NCBI GenBank assembly: GCA_017475035.1
Contig: JAFVGK010000087.1
Span: 30,630-94,629 of the forward strand
Reading direction: 5' to 3'
Source: Blautia sp.
GTDB taxonomy: Bacteria > Bacillota > Clostridia > Lachnospirales > Lachnospiraceae
Length of the DNA stretch: 64,000 bases
Below are positions 19,094-47,738 of this stretch, piece by piece. The position numbers and the translations under genes are program-made. How positions within the stretch are numbered: position 1 is the first letter of the stretch; each line of letters begins with the position of its first letter. The notes beneath the pieces are model-generated. The model was not told the origin of the DNA, ran no database searches, and saw only the letters and a program-made list of their open reading frames with translations.

Positions 19094-19196
19094 TATGGTA
19101 TGCGCACGAATTTACTGTGAAATCATGCCGCTTGCAGCGGCGTAAATTCGACGCAGTAAACGAATCAAAACGCAGGCTTTCTATTCGTTTACCATA
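19094..19196. repeat. Dispersed palindromic repeat family B, copy B1
   Basis: A 103-bp element running from TATGGTATGCGCACGAAT to ATTCGTTTACCATA. The outer ends pair as TATGGTA/TACCATA. Internally GTAAACGAAT pairs with ATTCGTTTAC, and GCCGCTTGCAGCGGC is a hairpin. Copies B2 (29,096) and B3 (47,636) are about 90% alike by eye. A fragment lies at 23,067, and TGGTAAACGAATGCCGCAGG recurs at about 37,727. Confidence 0.75.
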
Positions 19197-19343
19197 CGTA
19201 CACAATGGTTCATTTTCAAAGATTATACTCCGTTGCCTCTCAGGTTTCAAGATTTCATCATTTCTTCCGGTTCTTTTAAGTAAATTTTAGGTCATGCCCG
19301 TATACTCTCTGAAGCAGATCAGAATACCTGATGAACACAGACG

Positions 19344-19435
19344 GATTTTGCTGCTTTGGCAGCCTAACTGCCGAAGCGGCAAAATCATCATCCGAAGACA
19401 TTGCGTCAACGTACAAAACTTCGTTTCAGGAGGAT
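19344..19435 (+). promoter_or_regulatory. Leader repeat family C, copy C1 (hairpin plus ribosome-binding site)
   Basis: GATTTTGCTGCTTTGGCAG pairs with CTGCCGAAGCGGCAAAATC to form a strong hairpin. It is followed by a conserved single-stranded stretch with CATCCGAAGACATTG, ACAAAACTTCGTT and then AGGAGG for the gene at 19,441. Similar blocks precede the genes at 24,587, 46,272 (minus) and 57,461. CGAAG and CTTCG could form an alternative stem close to the ribosome site. Confidence 0.65.
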
Positions 19436-19440
19436 GTGTG

Positions 19441-19974
19441 ATGATTAGAAAAAAAGTAATCTATTGCCTGGCATGCGGGACATGCTGCGTCTTTCTTGCT
19501 TATGGGCTTCTGGTGCAGGCGCTCCGCGGAAGCGAGTCGGCTCAGGCAGCCGGTATCGACTGGGTGCTGGAAGCGCCTGCTTCCGCAGATGCTTCCATGG
19601 AACAGCAGGCTGCAGATGGGCAGACCGGTAAACTGCTCCCCGAAAGCAATTCGGATGAAACGGTTCCGGAAAGCATAGCGGATCAGACGATTCCGAAAGG
19701 CAGCGTGGATCAGGCGGTTCAAGAAAACACAGCGGATCAGACGATTCCGGAAAGCAACGTGGATCAGACGCTTCCGGAAAACACAGCAGATCAGATGATT
19801 CCGGAAGACAATGCGGATGAGACAATCTCTGAAAATGGCCTCAATGACCGGACACCAGACAGCGAAGCAGGAGCGCCGGATTCTTTCTATGCAGACGATG
19901 CGGGATACAGCCGACACGGAAAACAGCACGGCAGAAATGAAGGAAACGGCGGAAAGCATGGAAGGGGGTTTTAA
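19441..19974 (+). CDS. Membrane-anchored or secreted 9-residue-repeat protein, first gene of the reductase cluster
   Basis: A 177-residue protein without a recognised family. Residues ~5-27 form one hydrophobic segment (VIYCLACGTCCVFLAYGLLV) that could be a signal anchor and contains four cysteines. Residues ~75-145 hold about eight imperfect 9-residue repeats of the type ENTADQTIP/ESNVDQTLP, very acidic, probably a spacer. The C-terminus is rich in His and Gly (SRHGKQHGRNEGNGGKHGRGF), which may bind metal. The start at 19,441 has AGGAGG upstream within leader C1. The stop lies one base before the next ATG, so it is the head of the operon and probably works with the dehydratase-like proteins at the membrane. 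The role is inferred from position only. Confidence 0.6.
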   Translation: MIRKKVIYCLACGTCCVFLAYGLLVQALRGSESAQAAGIDWVLEAPASADASMEQQAADGQTGKLLPESNSDETVPESIADQTIPKGSVDQAVQENTADQTIPESNVDQTLPENTADQMIPEDNADETISENGLNDRTPDSEAGAPDSFYADDAGYSRHGKQHGRNEGNGGKHGRGF

Positions 19975-19975
19975 C

Positions 19976-21256
19976 ATGAAAAAACTGGAAGAGGAAATCC
20001 GTTCCGTCCTGGAAAAAGCCCTTGGGGAAAACTGCAGATTCCCTGAAGCCGAATGGTTTCTCTATGAGCTTGCATGGTTTTTCAGTGAAGAACATTTAAA
20101 AACCGCCAGACCACGCCTGATTGTTCTCGGAGAAGATTTTCCCCAGGAGCTCGCTCTCGCGTTCTGTCCGGATTGCTGGTTTATCCTGGGAGGGAGCACA
20201 CAGACAACGCACTGGTCAGACTCTCTGCTGCCAAGGGACACAGACCCTGTCAGCCGCTCTGCCTGTGGATGGCTTTTGAATCAGGAATTTCACTTAGCCG
20301 AAAAAGCGCTGGTTGTCATGATGCTCTCCTCCGACAACCGCAAAAAGCTTGCCGGCTTATTCAGGCGCAAGGGAATCAAAGTTGCGGCAGCGGATATGCC
20401 CCCTCAGTTTCAGTCAGCGGCGTCTCAAAAAGCCTGGACAGAGGAAATTCTGCGCATCGCCGGCCAGATACAGGACCATACCGGGATGAAGCTCACCACA
20501 CAGCGCTTAAAAGCGGCCATCAAAGAAAAAGCTGTCATACGTGAGGCTGTTTCAGATTTCAAAACAGCTGTCTGGGAAAACCCCTCGTGTATGTCTCCTG
20601 CCCTGCGCGATATCATATTGGAAAGTGTATGGTATACAGAGGATAAAAAGGCCTGGGTTTCCCACCTGCGGGAACTGACACGGCAAATCAGATCTTCATC
20701 ATCCCTCCCTATGGAAGAAGCCCGTTGTCCCTGGATCCTGCTGGCAGGTTCCCCTGTTATTTTTCCCAACGAAAAGCTGCCCCTTCTTCTTGAAGCTTCG
20801 GGTTTATTCCTGGCGGACAGGGCGGACGCCGTCATGCTGCAGTTCTATACCTCCGGCAGTGCCATGGCGGACAGGGTCGAGGACCTTGTCAGTGAAACAG
20901 CGGCGAAACGCCTGCCCTGGGAGGTTTCGGGAGCCTGGACGAATAACAACGGGCTGTTAAAAGCAATAGAAAACAGGCTGGAGCGGCTTCCCATCGACGG
21001 AATTGTGTACCATGTTTTAAAAGGACAGATCGAATATGATTTTGAACTGCCGAAAATCGAACGGCTGGCATCATTGTATCACATTCCTCTCATCCGCCTG
21101 GAAACCGACTATCAGCAGCAGGATGTGGAACAGCTTCGGATCCGTCTGGAAGCGTTTTCGGAAATGCTCCGACAGGCAAAACAGGGAAGCACGCCGAGGA
21201 AGGAACCGGAAATACTCCCAAAGCCGGTTCCGGAAAGGAAAAGGTTTGAACAATGA
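19976..21256 (+). CDS. 2-hydroxyacyl-CoA dehydratase subunit-like (HgdB/YjiM) paralogue lacking cluster cysteines
   Basis: A 426-residue protein homologous to the product at 23,141: shared segments are LAGSPVIFPNEKLPLLLEASG, IDGIVYHVLKGQIEYDFELP and IPLIRLETDYQQQDVEQLRIR. These belong to the HgdB family of Fe-S dehydratases and reductases. However, the cysteines that bind the cluster in the other copy are all replaced: HVLKGQ instead of HVLRGC, LADRADAV instead of GADETCM, and RDTDP instead of RDACP. It therefore probably carries no Fe-S cluster and may act as a structural or substrate-binding partner. The start has AAGGGGG upstream; its stop overlaps the next start (ATGA). Confidence 0.75.
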   Translation: MKKLEEEIRSVLEKALGENCRFPEAEWFLYELAWFFSEEHLKTARPRLIVLGEDFPQELALAFCPDCWFILGGSTQTTHWSDSLLPRDTDPVSRSACGWLLNQEFHLAEKALVVMMLSSDNRKKLAGLFRRKGIKVAAADMPPQFQSAASQKAWTEEILRIAGQIQDHTGMKLTTQRLKAAIKEKAVIREAVSDFKTAVWENPSCMSPALRDIILESVWYTEDKKAWVSHLRELTRQIRSSSSLPMEEARCPWILLAGSPVIFPNEKLPLLLEASGLFLADRADAVMLQFYTSGSAMADRVEDLVSETAAKRLPWEVSGAWTNNNGLLKAIENRLERLPIDGIVYHVLKGQIEYDFELPKIERLASLYHIPLIRLETDYQQQDVEQLRIRLEAFSEMLRQAKQGSTPRKEPEILPKPVPERKRFEQ

Positions 21257-22968
21257 AAAAAATACCCGGAACATTATGGATCACCGCGCTGGTTTTGTTC
21301 GTCCTGGCGTTTTTTGCGGCGGATATTCCTTTTTATGTATTCCAGGCTCCATTGGAACGGGCTTCCCTTCATTCGTCCTATGACGGACTGCCTCTGACTT
21401 TCTCTTATGAAGGAGATAACCTGACTCTGCATGGTGCCTCTTCAGATGTGACGGTCTACGGCCTGACCTCAGAAGGAATCGCCCGGATTCCAGACGGGGA
21501 ATCCTCCTCTTTCCCCGAAAGCAGCCTTGGCACTCTGGCTGCCGTCCGCGCCGGATACAGTCAGGATACGGATGGGGACGGAATAGAAGAAATCATCACG
21601 GAGGCGGCAAAAACAGACATGGAATTTACACAGGAGCATGTATCCGGAGGAAACGCCTTTCTGGATGAAAGAATTCCATTTGAAGTCTCGATGACGGATC
21701 GCAGCACGTTTCATTTCACCCTTCACTGCCTTCCCCTTGCAGACACCTCGATCACGGCAATCCTGCCGGATCAGAGGGAAATCAGCCTGACGACAGATAA
21801 AAACGGCAGTTCCGGTCTGCTGAAATTAAATGAATTCCGTCAGGGCGTAACCTTCGTGTACCGGCCGGATACGAGCCACACCTTCCGCTTTTTCTATCTC
21901 TGGGAGGACAACACCGTTTTCTCCCTGCGGTGGATGCAGGCCATGATGCCGTTTACCATGATCCTCTGCATCACGCTCCTTGCCATCCTTCTGGATGTTT
22001 TTCTTCGGAAACGTCTTTATGTCAGAAACAGCTATCCCGAAGCACAGGTGAAGGTATCTCATTTCGGCGAATCAAAGCCTCATCTGCATTTTGGCTTTGA
22101 AATGATCCGATGGATCGTGATGCTTGCAAGCTTTATCCTGCTGATCTGGGGAGGAAGGATCCTGGGCAGCACGTTTTCCTCCTTTCGCCTGCCCATCCTG
22201 GCATGTCCCTATAACATGGACCAGGGTGCCGGCGCGGGCTGTTATCTTTTCAGCCATGTCGAGGAACTGTTCGCCTCGGATGTGAAAGAAATCCTGTGGT
22301 TTGCAGGAAGCTTTGCCGTGTGCGCTTTCTTATTCGGCCGTCTGCTGTGCGGCTTCGTGTGTCCGCTCGGTTTCGTCCAGGATGTCATGCATGAGCTTCG
22401 GCAGCAATTCCACACGGAAGGAGTCGCCTTAAACGAAAAGCTCTATGCCTCCCTTCGTTTCATCAAATGGATCATGCTGCTGCTTTTCCTGGGCATCGGA
22501 CTGATCGGCGGAAATTTCTGCGATTTCTGTCCTGCCATCACGCTATCCCCGGCGCTTGCCGGTTTCAAAACCAGCGTTTATTTCAGCGGATTCATGATGA
22601 CAGCGGTACTCGTCAGCGGATTTTTTAAGCGAAGGTGCTTCTGCAATATCTGTCCCATGGGTTATCTCCTTGGTCTTCCTCATAAAATCTCTCTGGTCAG
22701 GCTGAAAAAAGACGCCATTGCCTGCACGGAATGCGGAGCCTGTTACGAGGTCTGCCCTATGGGGATCAAATCAATTTTTACAATCCGGGAAGGGAAAAAC
22801 GAACAGGCAATCGATGTCACCACTGCCGACTGCATACTCTGCGGAGCCTGCATCCGCTGCTGTCCGGAAGATCACGCCTTATACATGACGGTATGCGGCA
22901 AGGAAATCTATACCGCGTCACGTATGCGGTTTCTCGAGAATAACACGGCTGCTTCGTCCAAAGCCTGA
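21253..22968 (+). CDS. NapH/NosR-type membrane polyferredoxin with extracytoplasmic domain
   Basis: A 571-residue integral membrane iron-sulfur protein. A first transmembrane helix (~8-28) leads to an extracytoplasmic domain (~30-225) with a Ca-binding-like DTDGDGIEEI. More helices follow at about 228-250 and 284-303. Typical NapH/NosR cysteine motifs come next: CGFVCPLGFVQD, NFCDFCPA and CFCNICPMGYLLG. Two cytoplasmic 4Fe-4S ferredoxin motifs end the protein (CTECGACYEVCP and CILCGACIRCCP). Such proteins pass electrons between the membrane and soluble redox enzymes. Overlap with the preceding gene and the cluster context suggest that it feeds electrons to the activator at 24,587. Confidence 0.8.
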   Translation: MKKIPGTLWITALVLFVLAFFAADIPFYVFQAPLERASLHSSYDGLPLTFSYEGDNLTLHGASSDVTVYGLTSEGIARIPDGESSSFPESSLGTLAAVRAGYSQDTDGDGIEEIITEAAKTDMEFTQEHVSGGNAFLDERIPFEVSMTDRSTFHFTLHCLPLADTSITAILPDQREISLTTDKNGSSGLLKLNEFRQGVTFVYRPDTSHTFRFFYLWEDNTVFSLRWMQAMMPFTMILCITLLAILLDVFLRKRLYVRNSYPEAQVKVSHFGESKPHLHFGFEMIRWIVMLASFILLIWGGRILGSTFSSFRLPILACPYNMDQGAGAGCYLFSHVEELFASDVKEILWFAGSFAVCAFLFGRLLCGFVCPLGFVQDVMHELRQQFHTEGVALNEKLYASLRFIKWIMLLLFLGIGLIGGNFCDFCPAITLSPALAGFKTSVYFSGFMMTAVLVSGFFKRRCFCNICPMGYLLGLPHKISLVRLKKDAIACTECGACYEVCPMGIKSIFTIREGKNEQAIDVTTADCILCGACIRCCPEDHALYMTVCGKEIYTASRMRFLENNTAASSKA

Positions 22969-23066
22969 TCTGGGGGATCGGAGCGCTTCAAAACGTAACC
23001 GCTCCCGCGGTTGACATCATGCGGTCTGACATAATGTGGTCAGACATAATGTTGTCAGACTTACAG

Positions 23067-23112
23067 TATGCGCACGAATGAACTGCATCAGGCTTTTGTC
23101 GATGCAATCATG
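23067..23112. repeat. Fused fragments of repeat families B and A
   Basis: TATGCGCACGAATGAACTGC (left end of B) runs into CATCAGGCTTTTGTCGATGC (right end of A). The join shows that copies of the two families have recombined or inserted into each other, inside the operon. A short TCAGACATAATG-type direct repeat precedes it at 23,025-23,060. Confidence 0.6.
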
Positions 23113-23140
23113 AAATAAATATCAAGTAAGTAAGGAAGGA

Positions 23141-24430
23141 ATGAAGGAACGAAATATGACGGAATATGACCAGAACAGAATCCTGTCCCGGCAGCAGGAA
23201 CGCTTTGACAGAAAAGGAATTTCCCTGACCGCAAAAATGCTGCGGCAGATCAGGGAGCTGACCCATATGCCCGCTTCACTGGAACCTTTTTTGAATACCC
23301 TGGAACAGATCTTCGCTCTTCGCCGGGACGTACAGCGTCCCCGGGGCGTTCCCACGATAGGAACCTATTGTGTCATGGTTCCGCCGGAAATTATTTACGC
23401 CCAGGGAGCCATGCCGGTAAAGCTGTGCAGCGGCAGCTATACTGCCTTCGGCATCGGTGACGACAAGGCGCCCAGAGATGCCTGCCCACTGGTTAAGGCA
23501 GTTATGGGGTTTGAAGAAATAGATATTATGCCGGTATATCAGAACTGTGCCTTAATGGCCATCCCGGTCACCTGTGACTGTAAAAAGAAATTAGCCGGCT
23601 GGCTGCTGGAACGACGCCCCACCTCGATCCTTCACGTTCCATCAAACAGGGAATCTGACGCCGATATGGAACAGTTCACGGAAGAGCTTTACAGCTTCAG
23701 CCGCCAGCTGTCCCGAATCACCGGTATAGAGCTTACCTATTCGAATCTGGTCAAAGCCTGCCGTATGACCTCCGACGCACAGGTCCAGCTTTCCCGATTC
23801 ATTTCGCTCCGCAGAAAGCATCCCCTGATCATCAAAGGCACTTTTTCCATGGCTGTCATGAACGCCATAAGCTATACCTGGCTGCCGGACTGGACCAGAC
23901 AGCTCTCGGATTTAAATGATGAACTGGAAGTTCTCATTCAGAAAAAAGAAATGGCGGTAAAGGAAAACCAGCCCAGGATTCTGCTGACCGGTTCTCCTGT
24001 AGTATTTCCGAATTTCAAGCTTCCCTTGTTGATCGAAAGCATGGGCGGTCTGTTAGGCGCGGATGAAACCTGTATGGGTGAACGCGGCTTCTATGATCCT
24101 CCTGCGGTGGTTGATCAGACGATCGATGGAATGATGAGAGCCTTCTCCAACCGTTCCACCCGGCCCTGTACCTGCCCGACCTTTACGGACAATGACCGCC
24201 GCATCTACAGGATCCGGCAGCTGATCCGGGACTATCGGATCCAGGGCGTCGTTTACCATGTGCTGAGGGGCTGCCTTGTATATGATTATGAGTATGCCGC
24301 TCTGGAAGAGGAAATGGGAAAGCTGGGCATTCCGATCATCCGGGTGGAGACAGATTATAACGAAGAAGATGTAGAACAATTACGGATCCGGATTGAAGCT
24401 TTTATAGAGCTGATCAAGTATAAAATATGA
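23141..24430 (+). CDS. HgdB/YjiM-type Fe-S reductase subunit with intact cysteines (2-hydroxyacyl-CoA dehydratase family)
   Basis: A 429-residue member of the 2-hydroxyacyl-CoA dehydratase/benzoyl-CoA reductase/double-cubane-cluster family. Cysteines in family positions are Cys77 (GTYCVMVPPE), Cys96 (VKLCSGSY), Cys115 (DACPLVK), Cys136, Cys145 and Cys147 (TCDCKKK), then one in GADETCMGERG and one in HVLRGCLVYDYEY, plus RPCTCPTF. The single-subunit layout resembles YjiM or double-cubane proteins more than the fermentative dehydratases, and no CoA-transferase or acyl-CoA dehydrogenase accompanies it. The start at 23,141 has AAGG nearby; MTEYDQ at 23,156 is an alternative. The activator is the next gene. 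Confidence 0.82.
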   Translation: MKERNMTEYDQNRILSRQQERFDRKGISLTAKMLRQIRELTHMPASLEPFLNTLEQIFALRRDVQRPRGVPTIGTYCVMVPPEIIYAQGAMPVKLCSGSYTAFGIGDDKAPRDACPLVKAVMGFEEIDIMPVYQNCALMAIPVTCDCKKKLAGWLLERRPTSILHVPSNRESDADMEQFTEELYSFSRQLSRITGIELTYSNLVKACRMTSDAQVQLSRFISLRRKHPLIIKGTFSMAVMNAISYTWLPDWTRQLSDLNDELEVLIQKKEMAVKENQPRILLTGSPVVFPNFKLPLLIESMGGLLGADETCMGERGFYDPPAVVDQTIDGMMRAFSNRSTRPCTCPTFTDNDRRIYRIRQLIRDYRIQGVVYHVLRGCLVYDYEYAALEEEMGKLGIPIIRVETDYNEEDVEQLRIRIEAFIELIKYKI

Positions 24431-24479
24431 AACGGGCTTTTGTCGATGCAGACATGATACAGAAAAAGAGATTGATTTT

Positions 24480-24577
24480 ATTGCTGCGGAAGCTCAACTG
24501 CCGAAGCGGCAAAATCTTCATATGAAGACATCATATGAAGATTTTGAGGCAACGCACAAAACTTCGTTCCCAGGAGG
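24480..24577 (+). promoter_or_regulatory. Leader repeat family C, copy C2
   Basis: TTGCTGCGGAAGCTCAACTG and CCGAAGCGGCAAAATC form the C hairpin, followed by an internal palindrome CTTCATATGAAG repeated twice, then ACGCACAAAACTTCGTT and AGGAGG for the activator. A family A right end lies just before it at 24,432-24,459. Confidence 0.65.
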
Positions 24578-24586
24578 ATAATCATT

Positions 24587-25375
24587 ATGAGCATATATGC
24601 AGGATTAGACGGCGGCTCTACATATCTGAAGGCTGCCTTGATCGACCATACAGGACATGTTGTGGATACCGGCGTCAGGGCTACGGGAATCAATAACAAC
24701 GAGACGGCCAGGGTACTTCTGGAACAGCTCTGCCAAAGAAACGGCGTGAGCCATATCGATTATATCATGGCGACCGGTTACAGCAGGAAAATACTGGAAG
24801 CGGCGGATGACGATGTGAGTGAAATCACAGCCCACGCATACGGTGTGCGCATCACAGCGCCCGGTGACTTTCATCCCGGACTGATCGTGGATATCGGAGG
24901 CCAGGACAGCAAAGTCATTTACCTGGACAGCCAGTATCATGTCAGAAATTTCACCATGAATGATAAATGCGCCGCTGGAACCGGAAAGTTTATGGAGGTC
25001 ATCGCTCAGATCCTGGAGACAACCATCGACCAGGTCGGTCCCATCTCTCTCACAAGCAAGGCGCCCTGTGACATAAACAGTACCTGTGTCGTTTTTGCCC
25101 AATCCGAGGTGATTTCCCTTGTCGCCAGAAAATATGACCGGCGGGATATCCTGGCCGGCATGCATGCGTCCATGGCCAGGAGAATTGTAAAAATGATCCG
25201 GAAAAGCGAGATGAACGGAGATATTCTGATGACCGGAGGCGGCGCGCTGAACATCGGCCTTCGCCAGGCTTTTGAAGACGAGTTGATGCGGGATGTTTTT
25301 GTCGCCTCTCACCCTCAGTTCAACGGGGCGATCGGTGCGGCATTCATCGCAAGCGAAAGGAGACGGGCCGCATGA
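24587..25375 (+). CDS. ATP-dependent activator (HgdC/YjiL type, BcrAD/BadFG family)
   Basis: A 262-residue ASKHA-fold ATPase that donates low-potential electrons to its partner by ATP-driven conformational change. GLDGGSTYLKA (phosphate 1), DIGGQDSK (phosphate 2) and MTGGGALN (adenosine) are present. The cysteines that bind the single bridging 4Fe-4S cluster of the homodimer are Cys128 in NDKCAAGTGKF and Cys167 in NSTCVVFAQSEV. The length is typical of HgdC and YjiL. Partner candidates are the cysteine-bearing product of 23,141 and the cysteine-less paralogue of 19,976. It overlaps the next gene by four bases. Confidence 0.93.
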   Translation: MSIYAGLDGGSTYLKAALIDHTGHVVDTGVRATGINNNETARVLLEQLCQRNGVSHIDYIMATGYSRKILEAADDDVSEITAHAYGVRITAPGDFHPGLIVDIGGQDSKVIYLDSQYHVRNFTMNDKCAAGTGKFMEVIAQILETTIDQVGPISLTSKAPCDINSTCVVFAQSEVISLVARKYDRRDILAGMHASMARRIVKMIRKSEMNGDILMTGGGALNIGLRQAFEDELMRDVFVASHPQFNGAIGAAFIASERRRAA

Positions 25376-26019
25376 TGTTATCTCAGGCATTATTATCTGC
25401 CGCAGCAGCAGGAGTCGGCTGCGGTTCCGGCTGCGGTTCCGCGGCTTCCGCTTTTCTGGCAACCTATATTTTATCCGAAGGCAGGAGACTCCGGGATTCT
25501 TTCCTGCAGGTCGCCGTGTTTTATTTCGGCAAGATGCTGGCCATACTGTCTGTATGTATCAGCGGAGCAGCCATCGGCAAGGTTCTTGTCAATGACAGCG
25601 GCATTTTTTCCGGCATTCCATTGGGAAAGCTGGTAAGCGCCGTCATCCTCCTGGCCGGCCTCTGGCTGCTCCTGGACTGGGTCAAAGAGCGCAGAGGATG
25701 TTCCGGCTGTCATCACTGTCCATCCACGTCCAGGATTATGCCCACATTTTCCGTAGGACTGGCCTATGGCTTCTCTCCCTGCGCGCCTCTGATGATGGTG
25801 CTGGGATATTCCGTTCTTCTTTCGGTTCCGGAAGCACTGATCCTTGGAATCGTATTTTCCCTGGCTTCCTCCCTGATTCCCGCGCTTCTCACTCTGACGA
25901 TCGCAGGCGTCCTGTCCGCCAATATCTCTGCTCAGCTGGGAAAATATCTTCCCTGGTTCCGGCTGGCAGTCTATATTTTTTATCTCATTGCCGGAATTAC
26001 AGGAGTGCTATTTCTCTGA
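25372..26019 (+). CDS. DsbD/CcdA-like (UreH/SafE-type) membrane protein
   Basis: A 215-residue membrane protein with about six hydrophobic helices. Cysteines lie in the first helix (GVGCGSGCGSAAS) and in the fourth (YGFSPCAPLMM), the pattern of DsbD/CcdA thiol-electron carriers. A cysteine and histidine patch (CSGCHHC) in the loop at about residue 115-122 could bind metal or a cluster. The family moves reducing equivalents or sulfur/metal species across the membrane. It overlaps the activator gene by four bases, so a role in maintaining the redox system is likely; whether it carries electrons or a substrate is unknown. Confidence 0.7.
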   Translation: MMLSQALLSAAAAGVGCGSGCGSAASAFLATYILSEGRRLRDSFLQVAVFYFGKMLAILSVCISGAAIGKVLVNDSGIFSGIPLGKLVSAVILLAGLWLLLDWVKERRGCSGCHHCPSTSRIMPTFSVGLAYGFSPCAPLMMVLGYSVLLSVPEALILGIVFSLASSLIPALLTLTIAGVLSANISAQLGKYLPWFRLAVYIFYLIAGITGVLFL

Positions 26020-26085
26020 TCTTCTGGTATACTGTTATGGGAGATTTCAATACGAAACAGCCTGTGAAAAAGGAATTTGTGAATT

Positions 26086-26766
26086 ATGAAAATATTGTTT
26101 GCCGAAGACGATCGTGATTTAAGCAATGCAGTCAAAACGCTGCTGGAACGGAACGGATATCAGGTAGATGCGATCTGCGACGGGGAAGAAGCCCTCTCTT
26201 ATGCCTTAGCCGACGCCTATGACGGCATCATTCTTGACTGGATGATGCCGGAAAAAGACGGCGTGACGGTATTAAAGCTGCTTCGTAAAAAGGGTCTTTC
26301 GATCCCCTGTCTGCTTCTCACTGCCCGGGATGCCGTAGAAGACAGGGTAACAGGTCTGGATGCAGGGGCGGATGATTATCTGCCAAAACCCTTCAATGCC
26401 AATGAGCTTCTCGCCAGGATTCGGGCGATGCTGCGCCGACGGGAATCATACGTCCCGGATATTGCCTCGTTTGAAGACCTTTCTTTAGACAAAGGGAAAA
26501 ATGAACTCCGCTGCAAAGACAAACTGGTCCGCCTCACAGGAAAAAGCTACCTGCTCATGGAACTGTTCATCGAAAACCCGCGGATCATTTTTTCCGTGCA
26601 GCAGCTGATGGATAAGGTCTGGGGCTGGGACGCCGATGCGGAAAGCAGCGTTGTATGGGTAAATATCTCCACGCTGAGAAAAAAACTGACGGAACTGGAT
26701 TCCGACACCGAAATCCGGATGCACCGAGGGACAGGATACTCCCTGGAAAAAAGAGATAGAATATGA
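26086..26766 (+). CDS. OmpR-family response regulator
   Basis: A 226-residue two-domain regulator. The receiver domain shows the acidic pocket (FAEDDRD), the phospho-Asp in IILDWMMPEKDG, and the Lys in DDYLPKPFNANEL. The C-terminal winged helix has LTGKSYLLMELF and HRGTGYSL. It follows the DsbD-like gene by about 66 bases and overlaps the kinase start by four bases. The likely role is control of its own operon in answer to the kinase. Confidence 0.92.
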   Translation: MKILFAEDDRDLSNAVKTLLERNGYQVDAICDGEEALSYALADAYDGIILDWMMPEKDGVTVLKLLRKKGLSIPCLLLTARDAVEDRVTGLDAGADDYLPKPFNANELLARIRAMLRRRESYVPDIASFEDLSLDKGKNELRCKDKLVRLTGKSYLLMELFIENPRIIFSVQQLMDKVWGWDADAESSVVWVNISTLRKKLTELDSDTEIRMHRGTGYSLEKRDRI

Positions 26767-28115
26767 TCAAAAAACTTCAAAGGCGATTTATCTGCATCAC
26801 CCTCATCGCCCTGACCGCCGCCATGGTTCTGGTCGTAAGCATCGTGAATATTATTAACTGGATCAGTGTGCGGCAGGAACTATACCGGACTCTGGATTTC
26901 ATCGTGGAAAACAGCACATCCGAAAACTTCGCTGACGGCTCCGGAGCTTTTCCGCAGAACGATGATCGGCAGGGACGCGGCGGTGTTCAGAAAATTTATG
27001 ATATCCGGGACGATACATATTTATCCGAAAATTTCCCGGAAATAAGTGAAAGCCAGGGATTCCGCTTTTCGGGAAAGAATAAGCACATGCGGAATCTTGT
27101 CAGTGAATCGAACTGGTTTTCCGCATTCTATGACAGCAGCGGTACCTGCCGGATGATCCGGCACAGCCAGATGACGGACTTTAATGAACAGACAGCAAGG
27201 GAGCTTGCAGAAAAAGCGCTCTCCGGCAAAAAAAATGTTTCTTTTTTACAGGATTATCTGTATAAGATCGTTATTCAGGACAGCGGAGAAACGGATGTGT
27301 TCTTTCTGAATTGTGAAACAAAAATTGCATCCGTGAGAACCCTCGCCCTTCTCTCGGCGTTATCCTGTCTGGGAGGAATCATCCTGGCCTGGATCTTTGT
27401 ATCGCTCAGCAGCCGCAAAGCGGTAGAACCTACGATCCGGAATATGGAACAGCAGAAGCAGTTCATCACAAACGCCAGCCACGAATTAAAAACGCCTCTG
27501 ACGGTAATCTCCACCAATATGGAGCTGCTGCAGATGGATCTGCCTGATAACCCCTGGATCCGTTCTACACAGAAGCAGACCGCGCAGATGCGGCATCTCG
27601 TAGATGAACTGGTTTATCTGTCCCGCATGGAGGAAGAATCCGCCCCCTTAGTGATGGAACGTCTGAATCTGTCAGAAATTCTTACAGAAACTGCCGAACC
27701 CTTTATCGCCATGGCGGAATACCAGGGTAAAGAAATGAAGCTGGATATTGACAATCCGCTGTCTGTAACAGGGGACCGGGCGTCGATACAAAGACTGATT
27801 TCAACGCTTTGCGATAACGCTGTCAAATATGCCGCGGGCAGTGAACCCATCTTACTCGCCGCAAAGGCTGAGGGGCGCCATACCGTCATAACCATTTCGA
27901 ATGAAATAACCGAGCCCTTAACAAAAATGCAATGTGATCAATTGTTTCACCGCTTCTACAGAACCGATACATCACGCAGCAAGGAAAAACAGAAAGGCTT
28001 CGGGATTGGCCTCGCGATTGCGGCCGCCATTGTGGAAAAGCATGGGGGAAGCATCAACGCATCCATGCAGGATGGCAGCAGGATTGTGTTTACCTGTTTG
28101 CTCCCAATAAAATAG
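26763..28115 (+). CDS. Membrane sensor histidine kinase
   Basis: A 450-residue class I kinase. Two transmembrane helices (~11-35 and ~190-214) flank an extracytoplasmic sensor of about 155 residues that matches nothing I recognise. The H-box is NASHELKTPLTV, the N-box DNAVKYAAG, and the G2 box GFGIGLAIAAAI. The DxGxG box is replaced by SNEITEP, as in several clostridial kinases. It is translationally coupled to the response regulator and ends the cluster; a bidirectional terminator follows. Its signal may be the state of the substrate of the reductase. Confidence 0.9.
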   Translation: MIKKLQRRFICITLIALTAAMVLVVSIVNIINWISVRQELYRTLDFIVENSTSENFADGSGAFPQNDDRQGRGGVQKIYDIRDDTYLSENFPEISESQGFRFSGKNKHMRNLVSESNWFSAFYDSSGTCRMIRHSQMTDFNEQTARELAEKALSGKKNVSFLQDYLYKIVIQDSGETDVFFLNCETKIASVRTLALLSALSCLGGIILAWIFVSLSSRKAVEPTIRNMEQQKQFITNASHELKTPLTVISTNMELLQMDLPDNPWIRSTQKQTAQMRHLVDELVYLSRMEEESAPLVMERLNLSEILTETAEPFIAMAEYQGKEMKLDIDNPLSVTGDRASIQRLISTLCDNAVKYAAGSEPILLAAKAEGRHTVITISNEITEPLTKMQCDQLFHRFYRTDTSRSKEKQKGFGIGLAIAAAIVEKHGGSINASMQDGSRIVFTCLLPIK

Positions 28116-29095: not shown

Positions 29096-29199
29096 TATAG
29101 TATGCGCACGAATTTACTGCGGAATCATACCGCTTGCAGCAGAGTAAATCCGGCGCAGTAAACGAATCAGAATGCAGGCATTCTATTCGTTTACTATAA
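29096..29199. repeat. Dispersed palindromic repeat family B, copy B2
   Basis: The ends TATAGTA and TACTATA pair with each other. It differs from B1 at the same two paired positions (AG/CT in place of GG/CC), a compensatory change. GTAAACGAAT/ATTCGTTTAC pair internally. It is followed by a partial family C hairpin at 29,219-29,255 (TGCTGCTTCGGCAGTTGGAC). Confidence 0.75.
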
Positions 29200-30595: not shown

Positions 30596-32626
30596 TCAGC
30601 CGACTGCCTTTGACAAAGCATCATTTACGGCTTCTTTATAGCCATCCATGGTGACGGTAGCGCCGGTGATGACATCGATATCCAGACCCTGTTTCTCGAT
30701 CGTCTGGGCGACATATTCCGGAAGAGCTACACCGCCGATACCCTCGGTCTCGGATTGGTTGACAATCTCAACATTCTCGATCTTGCCGTCCTTGATGGTG
30801 ACCTTGACATCGATCTTGCCTCCGATGCCGTTGCCGGAGCCTTCATATTCGCCATCGATAAATGTGCCGGAGACATTCTCAGCGGCAGCATCCTCACCGC
30901 TTGCGGGGCGGGTGGTGCCTGCGGCATAAATCTCGCCTACGAAAGTGGTGACAGGCGTCTCTTCACTCTGGAACTCACCCTTTGCGCGTTTTGCGGCGTT
31001 GGTGCCGGAAATACGGCCATAGACCATGGTCTCGCCAAGGTTGCCGGAGCCGTTGTACATATCGCAGAAAATGGATCCCATCTCACCGGCTTCAAACAGG
31101 CCTTCGATCGGCATGCCATCCGTGTTGATAACCTGACCGAATTTATTCTTACGCGGACCGCCCTGCGTGTTGAAGTAGGTCGGGCCGATCTTGGTCGCAT
31201 AGAACGGGCCGGTCCTTACCGGTACCATCGTATCGAAAGGACGTCCGTAATCGGCATCCTCGCCGGCATCATAGCGCTTGTTATATGCTTCCACAGCAGC
31301 AACGAAACGCTCGGTGCTGAAGTCCGGAGCATCCGTGCCGCCCTCGGACTGGCGAATTGCCTCAGCCAGATCCTCCAGAGTCTCGCCCATCAGGACTTCA
31401 CCGGTAGCCAGCTCATCGACATATCCGTCGGAGAAAGCGCTGACCAGCTTATTTCCCGCTGCAAGCTGCTCGGAATCCTGTACAATGTAAGCCGGCAGAG
31501 GCATCGGAGTGGAGATCCAGCGGCCGCCGATATAGATACGGCCATGACGTGTAGCGCCGGACTCATCCATGAAACGATCGCCGCCGAGACCTACATAGAT
31601 GCCGCTCTTCGCATTCGGGCCGCCAAACAGGCTGACGGTGTCAAGATGAGGACGCTTATGTGTCCAGGTGAAACCAGCGGAGTTGGACATATGCCAAAGA
31701 TCAGCGCCAGCGCCTAAAGCCATCTTAATGCCGTCGCCATCGTTATACAGGCCGCCCTGCTGATGGACATAAGGCATCTGCAGATAGCTGCAGATCATTT
31801 CCTGATTATGTTCGAAGCCACCGCAGGCAAGGACAACGCCGCCGTTGGCTTTTACTCTGTGCTCGGTGCCTTCTTTATTGATGATAACACCGATGACACA
31901 GCCATCTGCGTCTGTGATCAGCTTCTTGCCAGGTGAAGCAAACCATACGTCGATGTCGCGTGCTTTCACAGCCTCCTGGCACAGATTATAATAACCGCGG
32001 TCGAAGCGGGTACCGGTAGCTGTCAGGCACAGGCAGTGCTTACTGGAAGGAATCTCCGGGAACTCTGCCCAGTTGTAATACCAGTAGTCCGTCTTTCCGA
32101 TCTTATATGGGTCTGTCAGATTGCCGTCACTGCCGTCAGCCAGCTTCCAGTCTGTGTTGTTTGCTTCAAAGCCTGCTGAAGGATGCTCTGTCGGGGAAAT
32201 GATCTCCGGATCGCCGCCCATAGGACCGGTCATCCAGTTATAGTTCTCCGCGCAGCCTTCGCAATATGCGCGGACGGCTTCCGGATCCCAGTTCTGGAAC
32301 TTGCCCATCAGTGTGGTCAGATAATCATACAATCCGTCCGCGTCATCGGTCGCCATAACGAACTGACCGGAAACTGCCGTATTGCCGCCCTCAGCGCCCT
32401 CGGGAGCCTTCTCGGCAAGCAGAACCTTTACGCCCTGCTCATATGCAGCCACAGCAGCATTGGCGCCGGCGCCGCCATAGCCAAGGACTACAACGTCATA
32501 TTCGTCATCCCATGCCGGTTCGGCTTCTTCTGCCCGGACAGCGACACGCGGCAGGTTCGCCAGCGCAACAGCACCGACTCCGGCAGCTGTGCCTTTCAGA
32601 AAGTCTTTTCTGGAAATATTTTTCAT
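30596..32626 (-). CDS. Extracytoplasmic flavin reductase: FAD-binding fumarate-reductase-like domain with FMN-binding domain
   Basis: A 676-residue exported flavoenzyme. The N-terminus NISRKDFLKGTAAGVGAVAL has an SRKDFLKG Tat-like signal, then comes the FAD domain with VVVLGYGGAGANAAVAA. The substrate domain shows TGTRFDRGYY, GIYVGLGGDRFMDESG, GPFYATKIGPTYFNTQGG and the FAD-closing GNLGETMVYGRISG. The C-terminal FMN-binding domain carries DVITGAT, the DxxTGAT motif on whose Thr ApbE attaches FMN covalently. Such reductases serve anaerobic respiration of fumarate, urocanate or related enoates at the outer face. The start at 32,626 gives the Tat signal at once; an in-frame start 18 codons earlier is less likely. 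No apbE is in the window. The substrate cannot be read from the sequence. Confidence 0.88.
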   Translation of the reverse strand: MKNISRKDFLKGTAAGVGAVALANLPRVAVRAEEAEPAWDDEYDVVVLGYGGAGANAAVAAYEQGVKVLLAEKAPEGAEGGNTAVSGQFVMATDDADGLYDYLTTLMGKFQNWDPEAVRAYCEGCAENYNWMTGPMGGDPEIISPTEHPSAGFEANNTDWKLADGSDGNLTDPYKIGKTDYWYYNWAEFPEIPSSKHCLCLTATGTRFDRGYYNLCQEAVKARDIDVWFASPGKKLITDADGCVIGVIINKEGTEHRVKANGGVVLACGGFEHNQEMICSYLQMPYVHQQGGLYNDGDGIKMALGAGADLWHMSNSAGFTWTHKRPHLDTVSLFGGPNAKSGIYVGLGGDRFMDESGATRHGRIYIGGRWISTPMPLPAYIVQDSEQLAAGNKLVSAFSDGYVDELATGEVLMGETLEDLAEAIRQSEGGTDAPDFSTERFVAAVEAYNKRYDAGEDADYGRPFDTMVPVRTGPFYATKIGPTYFNTQGGPRKNKFGQVINTDGMPIEGLFEAGEMGSIFCDMYNGSGNLGETMVYGRISGTNAAKRAKGEFQSEETPVTTFVGEIYAAGTTRPASGEDAAAENVSGTFIDGEYEGSGNGIGGKIDVKVTIKDGKIENVEIVNQSETEGIGGVALPEYVAQTIEKQGLDIDVITGATVTMDGYKEAVNDALSKAVG

Positions 32627-32686
32627 TTCAACCACCAATCCTTTCATATTATTTTTGTACATAATCGTCCATAGAATCATAATTCT

Positions 32687-47635: not shown

Positions 47636-47738
47636 TATAGTATGCGCACGAACTTACTGCGGAATTATGCCGCTTTCAGCGGCGTAAATTCGGCACAGTA
47701 AACGAATCAAAATGCAAGCGTTTTATTCGTTTACTATA
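47636..47738. repeat. Dispersed palindromic repeat family B, copy B3
   Basis: It runs from TATAGTATGCGCACGAAC to ATTCGTTTACTATA and is close to B2. It ends six bases before the stop codon of a decayed nuclease gene. Confidence 0.75.

Follow-up and report, generated by a model that had tools for sequence, protein, structure and literature searches.

A conserved gene set in Blautia sp. joins a double-cubane-type protein and its activase to a membrane polyferredoxin, and may serve electron transfer across the membrane

We analyzed a 64,000-nucleotide stretch of DNA from Blautia sp. (contig JAFVGK010000087.1; hereafter the window), in which eight open reading frames (ORFs), genes A to H, occupy positions 19441–28115 of the plus strand. 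They encode a repeat-bearing protein (A, 19441–19974), two members of the HGD-D family (B, 19976–21256, and D, 23141–24430), a NapH-like membrane polyferredoxin with an N-terminal extracytoplasmic domain (C, 21253–22968), an HgdC/BadF-type ATPase, or activase (E, 24587–25375), a multi-spanning DsbD_2-like membrane protein (F, 25372–26019), and a response regulator and sensor kinase (G, 26086–26766, and H, 26763–28115). Genes A and B are 1 nt apart, and ATGA overlaps join B to C, E to F and G to H. A first-pass annotation of this DNA, made from the sequence alone, had described an eight-gene cluster on one strand, with ATGA-type overlaps at several joins, that encodes a membrane-linked, activase-driven reductase. 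All eight genes and the overlaps were found, and B, C, D and E are conserved together in other genomes. Searches of the open-access literature, which miss most subscription papers, returned no description of the whole module.

Genome contigs, with each species represented by one genome, yielded 12 loci when scanned with B, and in all 12 C adjoins B and D adjoins C. Searches with C, at E-value cut-offs of 1e-30 or 1e-40 and in samples that overlap in part, matched 3 of 60 genomes of the genus, 7 of 250 of the family, 5 of 391 of the class and 1 of 398 of the phylum. The window's own genome is counted in each sample and is the sole match in the phylum sample; in a further family, labelled f56 here, 11 of 40 genomes matched. 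Phyla other than the window's own were reached through the plasmid collection only. After removal of duplicates the comparison set held 34 other loci, 33 from the window's class (Clostridia) and one from a Sulfurovum plasmid. Loci L012–L017, L041–L044 and L051–L061 coincide with longer loci fetched later and were counted once, L040 is the window itself, and L018 and L029 are near-identical. The carriers are anaerobes, and several of these come from animal guts.

D adjoins C in 34/34 other loci, and E directly follows D in all 31 loci that are uncut at that point. B is present in 31/34; two of the misses lie at contig ends and one, in Sulfurovum, is real. In 26 of the 31 B-bearing loci, C has a start codon placed so that the two genes overlap by 4 nt. 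F is present in 26/34, and the Sulfurovum locus has a DsbD_2 protein; three loci (L047, L048 and L070, hereafter the deep branch) lack F even though they reach past E, and four further loci are cut. The order is A-B-C-D-E-F in relatives of the window, B-C-D-E-F-A in the f56 loci, C-D-E-F-B plus a detached outer domain in L033 and L034, and B-x-C-D-E in the deep branch. Because gene order is conserved across families, the cluster is beyond chance. The earlier reading had been made to depend on the order recurring in other genomes; it is conserved elsewhere, and the reading stands on this point.

D matches HGD-D (PF06050) with E = 7.9e-79. It scored 302.5 bits with the double-cubane model NF040772, 98.6 with HadC and 52.4 with BzdN, and its 98.6 bits lie below the cut-off of 700 of the HadBC family model NF052456. 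In phmmer searches the alignment of D with the double-cubane protein in PDB 6eno and 7yyl (E about 1e-60) was much stronger than its alignments with dehydratases or with BzdN. These are structures of the double-cubane cluster protein (DCCP) of Carboxydothermus hydrogenoformans. The equivalog cut-off of NF040772, 350 bits, was not reached by D, by B (143.9) or by the Sulfurovum D (321.9), and D is not assigned to the equivalog because it attains 302.5 of the 350 bits. The cluster ligands of BzdN are Cys36, 73, 100, 263, 293 and 327 (PMC11971306). Mapped by spacing and by alignment with DCCP, their predicted equivalents in D are Cys77, 115, 145, 311, 345 and 378. All six, the expected ligands of an [8Fe-9S] cluster, are conserved in 33/33 D rows of the module, and the Sulfurovum D has them too. 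DCCP with its ATPase and E. coli YjiM/YjiL resemble the module in these six positions, in HGD-D membership and in the paired HgdC-type ATPase. In comparison with both, module D, with its score below the NCBIfam equivalog cut-off, adds Cys136 and Cys343 (33/33 rows each) and Cys147 (30/33), where DCCP has A, V and G, and YjiM S, I and G, at positions 136, 343 and 147, respectively. The module also adds a ligand-less relative, B, and membrane and secreted partners. Cys147 is missing from the three deep-branch rows and from the Sulfurovum D.

B is likewise an HGD-D protein (E = 7e-42) that scores higher with the double-cubane model (143.9 bits) than with HadC (48.9). It has no cysteine at five of the ligand positions in 31/31 rows, three of which have a gap at position 345; the sixth position, 145, is a cysteine in 14/31. 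The replacement residues are near-fixed: Gly in 30, Asp in 30, Ser in 28 and Gln in 30 of the 31 rows. The 13 comparison rows in the ligand count represent ten distinct proteins (G431a and G431b are one protein; G431c/d is a single ORF entered twice, and so is G540a/b). In a maximum-likelihood tree of 78 rows, from which proteins shorter than 380 aa were left out (those of L028 among them), all B proteins form one clade (100/100) within a B+D group (99/97) that lies apart from DCCP, YjiM, HadC and the paralogues of three genomes. The Sulfurovum D stands next to this group with weak support (91/20). The tree does not resolve the fork among B, the deep-branch type of D and the other D proteins, and its software flags possible attraction between long branches; for these reasons B is not claimed as sister to all D.

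These data suggest that (i) the core of D is of the double-cubane kind and probably works in a like manner, without being filed under the NF040772 equivalog; and (ii) B may be a structural partner that dimerizes with D, its cluster pocket emptied. The two subunits that the first-pass annotation had called HgdB/YjiM-like are thus both HGD-D proteins, but they are not equivalent, since the cluster ligands are kept in D only and B forms a distinct ligand-less clade. Paralogous pairs with one-sided ligand loss also occur in class I benzoyl-CoA reductase BzdNO and dehydratase HadBC (PMC11971306). Their second subunit, however, keeps a [4Fe-4S] cluster, whereas B has lost five of the six cysteines in every row. 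B adds a state beyond those named for the family in the available part of that paper, namely ligands replaced by near-fixed non-ligand residues.

A fermentative 2-hydroxyacyl-CoA dehydratase would share the HGD-D and activase families with this locus. Six double-cubane ligands in D against none or one in B, the scores (302.5 vs. 98.6 bits) and the tree, in which neither copy branches with the HadC reference, make it very improbable, and we rejected it on these grounds. The tree had been proposed as a check in the first-pass annotation, which had itself argued against a dehydratase from an absence of CoA-transferase and acyl-CoA dehydrogenase genes, at which no search was aimed here.

E was correctly recognized there as an HgdC-type activator: it matches PF01869 (6.5e-52) and TIGR00241 with 219.2 bits (cut-off 125.4). 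Its Cys128 and Cys167, which we take to be ligands of the bridging cluster, are present in 16/17 rows. ATPases of this type use ATP to push electrons into a D-type partner at a potential beyond ordinary donors.

Motifs of Fer4_5 and of dicluster ferredoxins are present in C. In an alignment with one NapH and one NosR it shares with them, and with the flavinylated NapH-like systems (PMC8238504), two inner Cys-pair motifs and a C-terminal 2[4Fe-4S] ferredoxin domain, which in C lies at Cys491–537 (22723–22863) and is predicted to be cytoplasmic. It differs from NapH/NosR in four extra cysteines, Cys318, Cys330, Cys423 and Cys426, at positions where the NapH and NosR references have none; together with His335 they span 22204–22530 and, by hydropathy, would face outward. 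It differs also in its outer domain (residues 46–220; 21388–21912), which has the DUF4198 fold and a DxDxDG-type loop in 19/21 rows. No FMN_bind match was found in C, and [ST]GA[ST] occurs in only 2/39 C-family rows. The cysteine count left out the two L024 pieces, the L035 fragment, the detached domains of L033 and L034, and a 722-aa Sulfurovum protein. The NapH model TIGR02163 gave 81 bits, under its cut-off of 213, and on this score, the extra cysteines and the lack of an FMN domain we rejected C as a plain NapH or NosR. The earlier label of a NapH/NosR-type protein with an extracytoplasmic domain holds as far as a NapH-like polyferredoxin with an outer domain. A Ni/Zn carrier role for the outer part was also rejected; the fold fits, but the histidines do not. 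In L024 (11239–12420) the C gene reads as two ORFs and is a broken or misassembled copy.

Seven cysteines of F (Cys17, 21, 62, 110, 113, 116 and 137) are invariant in 10 rows, Cys21 not being present in every more distant row. The description of F as DsbD-like is less secure: DsbD_2 (PF13386) is matched by 3 of 10 relatives (best 6.3e-8) and by the Sulfurovum copy (9.8e-20), the window copy has no Pfam match above cut-off, and a fold search with its low-confidence model (mean pLDDT 65.5) returned nothing below E 1e-3. In that model F resembles the DsbD/CcdA family in having conserved cysteines in the first and fourth helices, and differs in an extra CxxCxxC between the third and fourth. The secreted protein linked to F differs too, in having a four-cysteine (Cys4) motif and no thioredoxin match.

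This secreted protein is represented in the window by A, which has a hydrophobic N-terminus (a possible anchor or signal) in common with its relatives, carries acidic 27-nt tandem repeats, and ends before the Cys4 region. The relatives share the C-terminal consensus PTLxQFLSxLRCGGCRHNCxLLSPRCMKGRSKAQNAT-YQQTYG, with four cysteines (C-x2-C-x3-C-x6-C) invariant in 9 rows. The motif occurs in 18/34 other loci, and in 9 of these 18 its gene is the next behind F. The repeat-rich anchored protein of the first-pass annotation is a form of this protein that lacks the cysteine region. A Pfam scan of the motif gave one weak DUF3079 match in 1/9 rows, and a PDB search gave no match up to E 10. Similar motifs occur elsewhere: a histidine-phosphatase-like protein in L038 (588–1238, minus strand; contig C159 of the window's own genome) ends in one (CGNCAHNCLLENPGCDIG), and a large protein in L048 (1–2616) has CGGCTNNCLL, which resembles the part of the A motif with its first three cysteines.

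HgdC-type ATPases are reductive activators, and D and E could serve maturation or repair by reductively activating a metal centre located, for instance, in A with its Cys4 region or at C's outer site. The four invariant cysteines of A and its linkage to F suit such a role, but with the motif not seen in 16/34 other loci and missing in the window copy we consider it distinctly unlikely.

The reading that we put first, tentatively and at a little under an even chance, is an electron source that is energised by ATP and connected across the membrane to a final target outside. By analogy with the DCCP and HgdC families, E would accept an electron from ferredoxin or flavodoxin in the cytosol, and ATP would drive its transfer into the double-cubane cluster of D. 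B would most likely be the second half of the enzyme, with one face docking C instead of a second cluster site; its ligand loss, shared ancestry with D and overlap with C underlie this proposal. From D, electrons would then reach the ferredoxin domain of C, cross the membrane via two four-cysteine sites, and arrive at the DUF4198-like domain of C and, via the DsbD_2-like F, at the four-cysteine protein A. The target outside may be one of very low potential, a tightly chelated metal being the most attractive candidate, because the Sulfurovum module is preceded by two TonB-dependent receptor genes (perhaps one split receptor) and followed by another, and because NapH-like, DsbD and DUF4198 proteins have been linked with extracytosolic electron transfer and iron assimilation (PMC8238504). 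Ferric siderophore couples span −350 to −750 mV (PMC9727729). The first-pass annotation had favoured a small-molecule reductase of the YjiM/double-cubane type; the double-cubane part is retained and a cytosolic reductase keeps some probability, but the co-occurring parts point to the outside of the membrane.

Several observations weigh against outward flow. Its direction and its substrate are both proposals. The topology of C is based on hydropathy, and its model has pLDDT below 50 at residues 1–45, 219–571 and in three stretches within 46–220. No histidine is conserved at 85% in the 21 outer-domain rows, and a Pfam scan with PF10670 (DUF4198) matched one of five outer domains, weakly (0.0077; 16.8 bits vs. 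34), and not the window domain. The Cys4 motif was not found in 16/34 other loci (several of them cut), as in the window, and the Sulfurovum version lacks B. The joint absence of F and of most extra cysteines of C is seen in the deep branch, which makes the link between the two a single contrast in one branch, not three; two of the three rows of that branch retain Cys330. Cys147 of D is missing there and also in Sulfurovum, which has outer cysteines and a DsbD_2 protein. The retained Cys330 and the uncoupling of Cys147 from the outer cysteines lowered our confidence in outward flow slightly.

HgdC-type activases take electrons from ferredoxin-like donors, which together with the 2[4Fe-4S] domain of C would also fit inward flow: C would gather electrons at the membrane for the activase E, D would reduce a cytosolic small molecule, and F would move thiol equivalents or substrate. 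DCCP reduces small molecules in vitro (PMC11971306), and the deep branch keeps B, C, D and E without F and most outer cysteines, so an inner-membrane role of C can exist alone. Inward flow nevertheless leaves the outer cysteines, the DUF4198-like domain, F and A unexplained, and there is no evident donor outside the membrane with enough reducing power; we regard it as rather unlikely, though worth keeping in mind.

The same branch bears on a detoxification of nitrogen compounds (of N-oxide, azide or hydrazine type) by D. CRP/FNR-type regulators are divergent from B in all three of its loci, hydroxylamine reductase Hcp lies near the L047 module, and the L027 locus carries a CRP-type regulator together with a ferredoxin gene behind F; azide and hydrazine are among the compounds that DCCP reduces (PMC11971306). 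These signs come mainly from loci without F and A, and none were noticed beside the window or f56 loci in ORF lists read by eye, leaving this role improbable.

Neighbours of the Clostridia loci, most read by eye from ORF lists and some scanned, follow no steady functional theme. Metal uptake in particular is not a steady theme, a Zn/Mn-type ABC transporter appearing only at L071 with scores below cut-off, and L047 has Hcp rather than metal-uptake genes nearby; both count against outward flow to a chelated metal. In view of this, and of Hcp in one locus of the deep branch and CRP-type regulators in all three, a chelated metal is kept as no more than a candidate substrate. The fuller claim, that electrons below the reach of ordinary donors are exported across the membrane at the cost of ATP, by a double-cubane enzyme with one emptied subunit, to strip metals from very stable extracellular chelates such as ferric siderophores or to reduce another outside target, is unlikely in our estimate.

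Double-cubane proteins are a family that reaches extremely low potentials, and the biological function of archetypal DCCPs is stated as unknown in the available text of PMC11971306. Through its conserved partners, a membrane Fe-S protein, a DsbD-like protein and a secreted cysteine protein, the module offers a concrete, testable setting for double-cubane function. Should this route indeed carry electrons out of the cell, the cell would be paying ATP to export them, and DCCP-type proteins would gain a physiological role.

The OmpR-type response regulator G and histidine kinase H had been taken as the module's own two-component system. They are better seen as optional neighbours outside the core, similar pairs lying beside 4/34 other loci (L021, L026, L032 and L071) and a weaker, divergent pair beside L024.

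The gaps flanking D are wide in the window, 172 nt between C and D (≤91 nt in the 34 other loci) and 156 nt between D and E (≤99 nt in 30/31, the exception being L067 with 245 nt), and both contain repeats. The C/D gap holds one copy of the 20-nt motif GTATGCGCACGAATNNACTG, which at ≤3 mismatches has four copies in the window (19098–19117, 23066–23085, 29100–29119 and 47640–47659); the 79 genome copies at ≤2 mismatches, against 0 for the reversed control, mark it as a dispersed repeat. The D/E gap holds a long imperfect copy of the stretch preceding A, and this longer repeat stands 5′ of both A (19334–19425) and E (24464–24568).

Two further HGD-D/activase loci of a different type lie on contigs C121 and C3 of the same genome (L036 and L037); one has an ArsA/ParA-like ATPase gene in front, and the other encodes a 652-aa protein joining HGD-D and BadF/HgdC domains. 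In the window, positions 30596–32680 (minus strand) encode a putative secreted flavoprotein with FAD_binding_2 and C-terminal FMN_bind domains, likely an extracytoplasmic flavinylated reductase close to the module. A Clostridiales-1 RNA (RF01699, 98.3 bits) lies at 1395–1592 on the plus strand and a tRNA-Thr at 2637–2711.

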